A stretch of 64,000 nucleotides of DNA from Utricularia gibba (lineage: Eukaryota; Streptophyta; Magnoliopsida; Lamiales; Lentibulariaceae). The stretch is from positions 3,658,001 through 3,722,000 of the forward strand of contig CM007992.1 of NCBI GenBank assembly GCA_002189035.1, given 5' to 3'. The notes below the pieces were generated by a model, which was not told the DNA's origin, made no database searches, and saw nothing but the letters and a program-made list of their open reading frames with translations. Of this stretch, positions 20,293 through 60,795 are shown in pieces (position 1 is the stretch's first letter; every line of letters begins with the position of its first letter). The translations under genes and the position numbers were made by a program.

Positions 20293-22777
20293 TTATGACT
20301 GGAAAAGAGTGACAGTTGAAATGTAGCCATTCTTCATTATCTGTGGTTAATTTCAATGAGATTTCGATTCCCCAAAAAAAAAAAAAAGGCTTGGAGTATT
20401 TGTGAGTTAAATGGTTCACCTCAAAGGCTACGTTTGGGTACCCATATACAAAAGTTGACCCGAAGGGGTTGCTGGTAGAACCTTGTGTCTGGATGGCGGC
20501 TCGACCACAGTGCCCCAGAATCTCCTGATTTTAATTAAAAAAAAAAATCTTCAACCACAGGTTTCTTTGTTCATCAAGGAGAGAAAGTTCAGTTGATATC
20601 ACTCTCACCTTCACTTGCTCCCACTTCGTGCTAGGTGTGATGGCATGTTTAGATGTATTTACATCCTGACGAAATGATCCACCTATGGAAATTGATCATT
20701 AGTTTTCATCCTCCCTGGCTGTGAGAATAAAAAAAGCTGACTGCCATGCATTACCATCATGTCGAAAAATGACGAAATTACACTTCATGTATGAGTTAAA
20801 ATCTGCATGCCCCGGGTAGTTTGTGTGCAGAACAAACTTCTTGATCTTGTGTGTCTGTAAAACAGACGAGCATAAACTTAAAGGGCCATGGTGAAAAGTA
20901 TTGAGGTCAATGAATTACCTGCCCATCAAATAAAATGTCCAGGCCACGGGTGAAATAATTATAGAAATAATCACCACACAGGGTTGTTCGTGGCCGAGGG
21001 TCTGATGCAGAATGGATCACCATTTGGTCCACCTGCGAGAAGCCAGAGTGAACACAGGGTGGTAATAAGCAAAATAGAAGAGAAAGTTACCTGCTTTTGG
21101 TGGATTCCACAAGGGCGTCCCAATTCAGTCCACACATCCTGAAGAAAAACATTAATTTAGGCCTAATTGAACGACACATGATTTTGAGGAGTAGTCAAGG
21201 TCCTCTCTGTGTATAAAAAACTGCAGAAGCAATCTCCTTCAAACCTGTGGAGAAGCACCAAAGGGGATATGCTGGCCTCCAACTGTGAACCACAACTCTT
21301 CCCCAACTATATACCAAAAAAGAACAGCCCAGTTGGAATACAATAGCTTTACTTGAGTAATAAATATCTAACTGCATGGATAGCAAACTATACTAACAGC
21401 AATACCAAGATACGAAGATTTAGTTCCCATGCAAGAATTTCCCCTAACAACACTGGTGTTAAAACGTGCCACGAATTTATACAAAATAAAATAAGTAGCA
21501 CCTTTACTTGCACTTCTTCCATATAAAGGCTGCCAGCAGGGAGAGGTGGTACACATGCCTTGGACATCTGTGAACCCACCCCAACCTTGCTGTCAGTAGA
21601 AGAATCATAGATCGAGACACGGCAAGTGACAGGTGTTGTGCCATCAGGGAACTCCAAGGGCAGTTCAGCTGAAAGCAAGAATAGTGATAAGAATTATACT
21701 AAATACAGATGTGGTGGTTAATGAACTAACTTGGTACCTTCTCGATCCTGACAGCACTCTGCATACTGTGAGGGTATAGGAAAAGCAAAAGACAACCCCT
21801 GGAAAAAAAAAAAGAAAAAACAAGGAAGCACTCAACACTCGTGAACTGCGAATGAACAAGCCAAGATCGCACATTTCTGCTGAGAGTACATTTAAACCAT
21901 ACTGGGTAAAACAGAGTGTAAACACCCCTCTCTTTGTCAAAAATTCCAGGATATGTTGGGCCGAAAAGAGCATAGACAGCGACAAACGTTGCAAGTGTAG
22001 ATGGCCCCCTGGCAGAAAACATGTTCTCAGAGAGAAATTCATTGATGATGTAGAATGCACAATTCTTTTTTACAGAAAGATCATGACTGCATACCCAATA
22101 AGGGCAGTTGCATATCGCATCTGAAGCCGCTTGATGTCAAAAATTTCAATAAGGCGAAGTCTCTAGCATACAGAAAAGACAAGTTATTCCATAAGATGAA
22201 TGCTGCTACCATAAATTACCACCATACAGAACCACATTTTCACATCCAAGTTTTTATTTTGACTAATAAGCTTTCATAGAGGATACCTGTGACCACGGAT
22301 CAAACCGAAGATGAAATCCATGGTCAGGGAAGCTGATAACAATGTCAAGTTTCAAAGGCTCCTGCAGGAATAATAAAAAATTGTCCATAAGAAAATTTCC
22401 ATGCCGTTCTAGAAACATCCCTTGAAAAGGGGAATCAGATCAAACCTCATCAAAGTACTTGACATGAACCACGTCGTAAACACTCGGCTGCTGCTCTATA
22501 TGTGCAAAGGCCTCACATACTGGCATCCCTGAATTCCAAAAGAATGAATTTTTGATTCATCAACAACTTCCCTCAACTTTTCCCGATGTCACACAAGTAT
22601 GATCATGCGAAAATCAACCACATCATCAAGAATTTTATCCCAATTCCACAATTCCACCCTCCGCGCAAGCAACAAGTATGGAACTGAACAAACGATTAAA
22701 CCCGAAAAACTCGATGTACCAAGGGAAAAGGGGCCAAGCCCGAGTCCCGGCCGAAGATCAACCACGATGGACCCCAT
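20293..22777 (-). CDS. PHAF1 / UPF0183 family protein (14 exons)
   Basis: Fourteen short exons run from [20 protein letters not shown] (start 22775-22777) to [15 protein letters not shown] (stop 20293-20295). Conserved blocks in order are [106 protein letters not shown] and [15 protein letters not shown]. This is the eukaryotic UPF0183 family, whose human member is phagosome assembly factor 1, linked to autophagy-related membranes; the plant role is little defined. One exon (21245-21306) is 62 nt where 63 are needed: after its acceptor TATATAG the codon for V/L of (V)GEELW lacks one base. An alternative acceptor 40 bp upstream would keep frame but insert about 13 unrelated residues. The final exon is separated from the previous one by a donor GTGAAC and a T14 tract. 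Confidence 0.88.
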
Positions 22778-23605
22778 CGCCGTGCCCTCACATCTCCTTC
22801 GACTTCTCTGCATCTTCCTCCTGTTCCCTCTAGCAAATAGATCGCGGGCTCCCTTAAAAACGGTGAAGTTCAACGAATATCCACCCCGCCGTTTCACTTC
22901 ATCACCACGACAAGCAACCTGTGATTTTCTCCTGTTTTTCAACCATGTCAATGGGCCGTTACATGGGCACATCAGGCCCAGTCACTCCTGCTGATCAACA
23001 TCTTGGGCCCATCCATCTACTCCCGGCCCATCTAAAAAATAATTGTTTTTTTTTAAAAAGAAAAATCAATTTCCCGAATTACCCCTTGATTAAAGATGGC
23101 TAATTTTCCAACATAGCCTCTTAAGTACCAGCCGAATAGTCGTCCTAGTAGAGAGTAGGGCAGGTTCGAATTCGTAGGCAGATCAAAGTGTGACCAACAA
23201 ATCAATATTTTAAAATATATTATAATTATAATATGACCTGGATTCAATTTCATCAATGCATAATTAATTTTAGGGCTTATGGGTATTCATTCCCCCCAAG
23301 TTCCATGCTTCTTCATGCTGCCTTTGAGTGGTATTCTGTCACTTAGGGACCGCAAATGCTAGCTACCACGTCCGACTCCGGCCACCGGCGGAGCCGCCGT
23401 AGGGGGCTCAAACCTGGTCATTTCCTATAGAATATCAATACGTTGTTAGGGAAGTAAATTTGGAAAACCATGGCTTTAATGTTGTATTTGTATGTTTGAT
23501 ACGTCGAAAAATAAGAAATTTTTTGAATGAAAACATTTTTATGAAGATTCTATTAAATAAGTCAAAAAGGTTCAATTACAAGTAAACTAAATCGAATTCA
23601 TACAG

Positions 23606-58478: not shown

Positions 58479-58999
58479 GAAATTCAGCGCAAAGACGTTC
58501 CCCACGATTCAACAAAACCACGCCCCAGGATATATATAAATACACATATCCCGAGAAGGATCCAAATTTCCTTTTCTTTTTTTTTAAATAAATAAAAATA
58601 ATGTTCAACTTCCTTAACGCGTACGTCTCAGCGCGTTGCCCGGCTTCTAATTTATGAATGTGGGGCCCATTTTCTACACTTTTAGATAGGCGCTTACATT
58701 TAATTAAAATAAAAAAAACTGGTCATAAGTTCGGTCAACCTTTGATTTAATAATTTTTATAAAACGTTAAATTAAAGAATTGTTCTAGAAAATTTTTGAA
58801 AACTCTTTTTACTTTTTAAAATTATTTTAGAAAAATAAAAATAACCAAATCCTTACTTTTCTAAAAATTATTTTTATTTCTGAAAAATAGAAATAAGTTT
58901 CCTTGAATCATTATTTTTATGTTTGATTGATGACCAAAACATTTACAAATCTGGTTATTCGATTTTTCTATTACATTGAAACAACAAAATTACAGGGAA
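58479..58999. other. AT-rich spacer between NIP1-like and RLCK genes
   Basis: The NIP1-like promoter and the 3' flank of the minus-strand RLCK gene. The right part is AT-rich. Nothing else is visible. Confidence 0.6.
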
Positions 59000-60795
59000 T
59001 TACCCAAGCAAGTGACGTGGTGAGCGATTGCTGCGATGGAAGTTCTGATAGGGAGGCGAGGAGGCAGCTCGAGGAGACAGCGGCAGCATGTTTTGGTGAG
59101 AGGAAGATGGGGGCTGGTCTTTGGAGATGCTCATTGCTGCGATGCCTTCTAAGCATTCGACTATGTCCGCCATGGAAGGCCGTTTCTTGGGGTCCGTTGC
59201 AAGGCATCTGCGGGTGAGGTGGGCAGCCTCAGATGCTGCCTTGGGGAATACTGCCCTTCCATCTGTTCATCGATTATGTTCTTCAGGTTCCGTTTCTGCC
59301 AGAGGAGGGGCTGCATCCAGTCAACCAGGTTCTGCTGCCCTCGGGGGCGTCTTTTATCAAGTGATCTCAAGCCTGTCATCATCTCAAGCAGCACCACTCC
59401 GAAGCCATACACATCACTCTTCACAGAGAGGTGACCTGTGTGCATGTGTTGGTTGTTGAGTATGTGGCATCGCCCACCATGCTTTTCAAAGGGGGAAAGT
59501 AGGTCTTACCTGTGCTGATGTACTCAGGGGCAGCATATCCCAGCGTTCCCATGACTCGAGTAGTGACATGAGTATCTGATCCGGATGGCCCCAGCCTCGC
59601 CAGCCCAAAGTCTGATATTTTTGCATTGTAATTCTACAGTTAAGAGAAGGAACAGTTGAGAATAGAAGCAAATTGGGGGCATAGAGAAAGAATGTTCCTT
59701 ATGGCCTATCTCTTGAAAAGACTAGAGTTGAGCAGAAACATGATTCATTGTTGCATTTTGTTCCAGTTTGAGTATAGAATCAATCACCCCCACCGTTTTA
59801 CGTTTCCAAGCAAATGATTATGGGCTCACCCAGATTGCACACTAAAAACTACCTCGTCCAGGAGAATGTTGGATGTCTTGAAATCACGATATATGACTTC
59901 CTTCCCGGAATCATGTAAAAAAGCCAATCCCCTTGCTGCTCCTATAGCGATTTTGAGTCGTAAATCCCATGAAAAAGGTTCCTGCCCCGCATTCCCTGAG
60001 TAATGAATAAAAGAGGATGTATGACTCAGGTTAACATTCCTGCATAGCCTGAGTTGCAAACAAAGCGTACTTCTAAAGAGATGATCCTCGAGGCTCCCAT
60101 TCTCAACATACTCATAAACCAGTATGAGCTCTCTCTGTTCCCAACAGAAGCCTAATAGCTGTACCAAGTTAGGATGCGATAACATTCCCAGAAAGTTAAC
60201 TTCAGTCTGCATGATCACATAAAGCAATTTCAAGTAGCATCAAAATATATATTAATTTCTGCTATTCGGGCACGAGTTGGCAACTGACAGAATGTTAACG
60301 TGAAGGAAGGAAAGGGGATGAAATTACCTGCCATTCTTCAAACCCCTGCAAACTTCGGGGATTCAACTTCTTTATAGCAACCATCATTCCAGTTCCCAAT
60401 CGAGATGACGGCCTGAGGGTTTTCTCCTCCAACCATCCCCTATACACAGTCCCAAAACCCCCTACCCCCAACACCATAGTCCGATTGAAGTTACCAGAGG
60501 CGATCTTCAAATCATTAAAACTATAGATTTTCAAACTCCGTGTAGCTGATTCTTCTCCTGTAAAGTCCATACCAATAACCGAACCAGAAGTAATTTTGCG
60601 GCTGCTGCTGGCATCCGGCAGACCCTGCATTCGCCTTCCCCCGGAGCTGCAATTGCGCGATACCCCTAACCACACAAGTACTATATAATCTCAATTTGCT
60701 AAAACCAGAAAGCAAATGAAGTTCACACTAGAACAAAGAGTACCTACGGCGGATGCTATGGACCTAGGGTCCAGCGATCCAGAGCAATTTCCCAT
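59000..60795 (-). CDS. Receptor-like cytoplasmic kinase, RLCK-VII/PBL type, one apparent frame break
   Basis: Six exons start with [17 protein letters not shown] (60793-60795), a myristoylation/palmitoylation signal for the plasma membrane. The kinase domain follows: [77 protein letters not shown] (RD catalytic loop), [26 protein letters not shown] (DFG and activation segment), [27 protein letters not shown] and [11 protein letters not shown]. Members relay signals from surface receptors in immunity and growth. The last exon (59000-59435, 436 nt) is one base short: after MEGQYSP the family expects KAASEAAHL, but the frame shifts at 59241-59242 and stops at 59161. Adding one base restores [23 protein letters not shown] and a stop at 59000-59002. 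Confidence 0.88.

Follow-up and report, generated by a model that had tools for sequence, protein, structure and literature searches.

Does the carnivorous plant Utricularia gibba carry recently broken copies of Rubisco activase, a membrane-lipid enzyme and two further genes in one stretch of a contig, or have single bases been dropped from the assembled sequence? The window, that is, the whole 64,000-nucleotide stretch of DNA analysed here (G000:C4:3658001-3722000), comes from a 100.09-Mb assembly of 516 contigs, which are up to 8.5 Mb long. In the HGAP pipeline, Quiver is the polishing step. The published U. gibba assembly was produced with HGAP from PacBio reads and has a contig N50 of 3.4 Mb (PMC5793159). 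Judging by the species, the present assembly is presumably this PacBio-only HGAP/Quiver one. The homoeologous segment of the window lies on contig C413 and served as the reference for many of the comparisons below.

One-base deficits in four genes of the window

An exon-by-exon reconstruction of the four genes recovered the six deficits claimed in the initial annotation, each of exactly one base; the splice sites are of the normal GT...AG type and the flanking exons are in phase in all four genes. The features concerned are the following:

21245..21306, minus strand: PHAF1-like exon, 62 nt where 63 are needed; short at GGGG (plus strand CCCC, 21301-21304)
38369..40233, minus strand: Rubisco activase (RCA) gene, six exons with an alpha-type C-terminal tail; match to PDB 4w5w, E 2.7e-218
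38940..39411, minus strand: RCA exon 4, 472 nt where 473 are needed; short at CCC (plus strand GGG, 39166-39168)
39679..40109, minus strand: RCA exon 2, 431 nt where 432 are needed; short at CC (plus strand GG, 39688-39689)
41047..43536, plus strand: IPUT1-like gene, ten exons; GT8 domain (Pfam PF01501) and C-terminal membrane segments
42801..43085, plus strand: IPUT1 exon 8, 285 nt where 286 are needed; short at GGG (42840-42842), GGGG in the homoeolog
43165..43284, plus strand: IPUT1 exon 9, 120 nt where 121 are needed; short at GG (43262-43263), GGG in the homoeolog
59000..59435, minus strand: last exon of a receptor-like cytoplasmic kinase (RLCK), 436 nt where 437 are needed; short at CCCC (plus strand GGGG, 59243-59246)

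Almost all of the deficits had been described as lying in runs of G, C or A. An A run is, however, the poorer reading for RLCK, where the homoeolog reads TCA CCC AAG and the window TC CCC AAG; the missing base would be best placed in the C run (TCC CCC AAG), so that all six fit runs of G or C. On the coding strand, the runs read C2 and C3 in RCA exons 2 and 4, G3 and G2 in IPUT1 exons 8 and 9, C4 in RLCK and G4 in PHAF1, which corresponds to true run lengths of 3-5, every one of G or C; the exact position of some deficits inside the frame overlap is our own reading. In tblastx comparison with the C413 segment, the frame switches in the window, but not in the homoeolog, at ~39165, ~42840 and ~59241. 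As to the eleven intact neighbours also claimed in the initial annotation, the claim stands for the window genes with a homoeologous match, among which we found no seventh deficit. Two candidates for a seventh, near 32.3-32.6 kb and near 48.7 kb, were rejected since each frame change fits an intron. The modelled exons of the four affected genes show no stops, indels of other sizes or lost splice sites, only deficits of one base.

The RCA gene is similar to the solved plant activases 4w5w and 3t15 over nearly its full length. Its exons measure 45, 431, 86, 472 and 282 nt, followed by the C-terminal exon, and only those of 431 and 472 nt are out of register. DNA alignment places the CC of exon 2 against CCC, or an equivalent full-length run, in three other RCA copies, and the CCC of exon 4 against CCCC in the homoeolog. 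Between the window copy and its homoeolog, dN/dS is 0.114 overall and 0.104 for the codons downstream of the second deficit, and dN to an outgroup RCA copy (on C451) is 0.133 for the window copy and 0.130 for the intact homoeolog. The RCA codons across both deficits are therefore under strong purifying selection, and relaxed selection after the lesion is absent in RCA, the one gene in which it was tested.

In the GT8 gene, a putative IPUT1 within its family, exons 1-7 are in register, followed by exons 8 and 9 with one base missing from each. It is the sole complete copy found in the assembly; a second copy (G000:C413:5443473-5444748, homoeologous to window 40960-43560) keeps its ends and has no exons 2-7, and is a homoeolog in the process of being lost. 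When one base is added to the last RLCK exon, the frame continues to a natural TAA. The PHAF1-like exon with the gap marked, joined to its neighbouring exons, matches PF03676 at 7.5e-37, above the cut-off; its deficit is three bases from the acceptor, and the assembly holds no second copy of this gene. Other copies of both RCA and RLCK are present in the genome.

Frame breaks elsewhere in the assembly

We then surveyed 148.5 kb of matched coding DNA from the HSP70, GRAS, ketoacyl-CoA synthase (KCS) and BAHD families of the same assembly (the UDPGT and tubulin families were left out of the counts), scoring a break wherever neighbouring matches were continuous in profile and in DNA and differed in frame. 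There were 37 close frame breaks, of which 31 have the offset of one missing base, against six without it. Diverged copies are included in this figure, as are one pair counted on each of two contigs and two or more cases (L068 and L069 among them) that read as two separate one-base deficits. Where the arithmetic is exact, 17 breaks lack one base and no break has an extra one. One-base deficits are spread over many contigs, in genes of the HSP70, GRAS, KCS, BAHD and RCA families, and the RCA case, a further copy at ~1.1765 Mb on G000:C451 (L005), lacks one base of a G run at its RWGG codons. At the survey rate, 4-5 deficits are expected in the ~19 kb of coding sequence estimated for the 64-kb window, and six or more would arise with a probability of ~0.2-0.3. 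The six deficits of the window are not a matter of chance, but at this density neither are they special to it; the window is ordinary for this assembly.

The sequence was read at 23 junctions, along with the HSP70 cases. One junction, the GRAS break at 1.155 Mb on C4 (L078), is an intron and was rejected as a deficit; for two BAHD breaks (L074, L077) no position could be assigned, and they stand outside the resolved set. Among the 26 resolved events, 22 are in G/C runs, two are in A/T runs and two are in a run of either G or A. The estimated share of G/C runs affected is ~0.0001, 0.0015, 0.011, 0.040, 0.126 and 0.48 for true lengths of 2 to 7, respectively, scaled by the G/C runs in 250 kb of genome in which coding and non-coding DNA are mixed. 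Rough as these denominators are, the climb with run length is clearly steep, which is the hallmark of homopolymer consensus error. In each of three SCR-like GRAS paralogues (C375, C1 and C142), one base is missing from the same C6-C7 run within a conserved GGPP motif; an ancestral frame break at that point would have destroyed all three.

A few further loci were noted alongside the survey. Two contigs carry an HSP70-like gene (L035, G000:C241:16598-18511; L036, C304:2235549-2237462) whose match scores and frame break do not differ between them. The shared break is outside any clear homopolymer and was excluded from the run-length count; the pair may represent a redundant contig or a recent duplication with one shared, perhaps real, lesion. 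An SRS/LRP1-like zinc-finger gene of the homoeologous segment (G000:C413, ~5416960), whose intact counterpart lies at window 27630, lacks one base near a G run.

The Dicer family offers a case of reported truncation, as U. gibba DCL3 has been described as truncated, without the Dicer-dimer domain (PMC8333044). Four Dicer members are present in the assembly, one of which is without that domain: a Dicer-like gene with two RNase III domains (L080 8367-9370; G000:C213:2761967-2762970). It gave no Dicer-dimer match, and inspection by eye of the 6 kb upstream revealed no helicase-like frame. On these grounds, a homopolymer artefact is an unlikely source of the truncation; the gene fits the reported truncated DCL3, and the loss looks real.

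Probable consensus error and the rival explanations

We consider it highly probable (about 0.94) that the six window deficits arose in G/C runs as errors in the consensus of an assembly built from long reads only, because one-base deficits of this kind occur at about equal density in genes across the assembly. The initial annotation had proposed such a shared cause, and the survey agrees with it in that the deficits are of one base, strongly biased to deletion, concentrated in G/C runs, steeply dependent on run length and found in unrelated families. In this process, the length of a G or C run would be uncertain in the reads and the consensus program would call it one base too short; an exon would thereby be trimmed by one base each time, making a healthy gene appear frame-shifted. 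The longer runs would then be those carried in reads and cDNA, that is, by the plant. Replication slippage likewise favours homopolymers, which is a point against this reading.

Long-read assemblies have been described as suffering from homopolymer indels that break genes (Watson and Warr 2019, cited in PMC12007338). The present deficits resemble those errors in being gene-breaking one-base indels in short runs, with deletions tied to the runs and found genome-wide. They differ in affecting a plant nuclear genome and in falling almost wholly in G/C runs.

It is improbable that the deletions are real, with all four genes being null alleles or pseudogenes of recent origin in the sequenced plant. 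The deficits do stand in the sequence, the other copies of RCA and RLCK would make the loss of one tolerable, and many duplicates have been lost after whole-genome duplication, as illustrated by the IPUT1 homoeolog without six exons; an indel that breaks the frame of one homoeolog and not the other is also what genuine frameshift pseudogenes of such an origin look like. Unlike such pseudogenes, however, RCA is under purifying selection, the four modelled genes show no other lesions, such as broken splice sites, the exact events are all deletions of one base, and the genes hit include PHAF1, which is single-copy, and the sole complete copy of IPUT1, a gene whose loss blocks pollen transmission in Arabidopsis (PMC4970446). 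The same type of lesion at equal density in unrelated families also speaks against real deletions. That all these genes were lost independently and recently, by a change almost invariably of one base and almost invariably within a run, is not credible, and the preference voiced in the initial annotation for one shared cause over four independent pseudogenes is upheld.

Real deletions could also be rendered harmless by transcription or translation slippage at homopolymers, as happens in the genomes of certain endosymbionts, which would accommodate both the position of the deficits in runs and the persistence of purifying selection in RCA. Runs of 3-4 G or C are very short for such slippage, the genome also contains intact copies of these genes, and, to our knowledge, no system of this kind operates in plant nuclear genes; we regard this as very improbable. 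No more probability attaches to splice sites that are shifted by one base and unrecognised, in which case the exons would not be short at all. Moving an exon end by one base could in principle restore phase, and this is hardest to exclude for PHAF1 with its deficit so near the acceptor, but in RCA, IPUT1 and RLCK the frame switches in the exon interior, at a distance from the splice sites and within conserved sequence. It is also very unlikely that one-base deletions in G/C runs are real and pervasive among the functional genes of this genome, with read-through or correction of the RNA, as part of an extreme deletion bias tied to its small size.

Consequences for the use of the assembly

With consensus error as the preferred reading, false frame breaks, at about one in every 4 kb of coding DNA, would affect a large share of the genes in this assembly. 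Analyses of gene loss, pseudogenes and 'microdeletion bias', as well as protein-based comparisons, would carry a bias in one direction when drawn from the assembly without short-read polishing. The run-length curve indicates where such errors are to be expected, namely in G/C runs of 5 or more.

In U. gibba, the four genes are likely intact, with no new biology at these loci, and the plant has probably lost neither Rubisco activase nor its membrane-lipid enzyme. As biology, the six deficits probably have no significance; their significance is that of a warning about the data.
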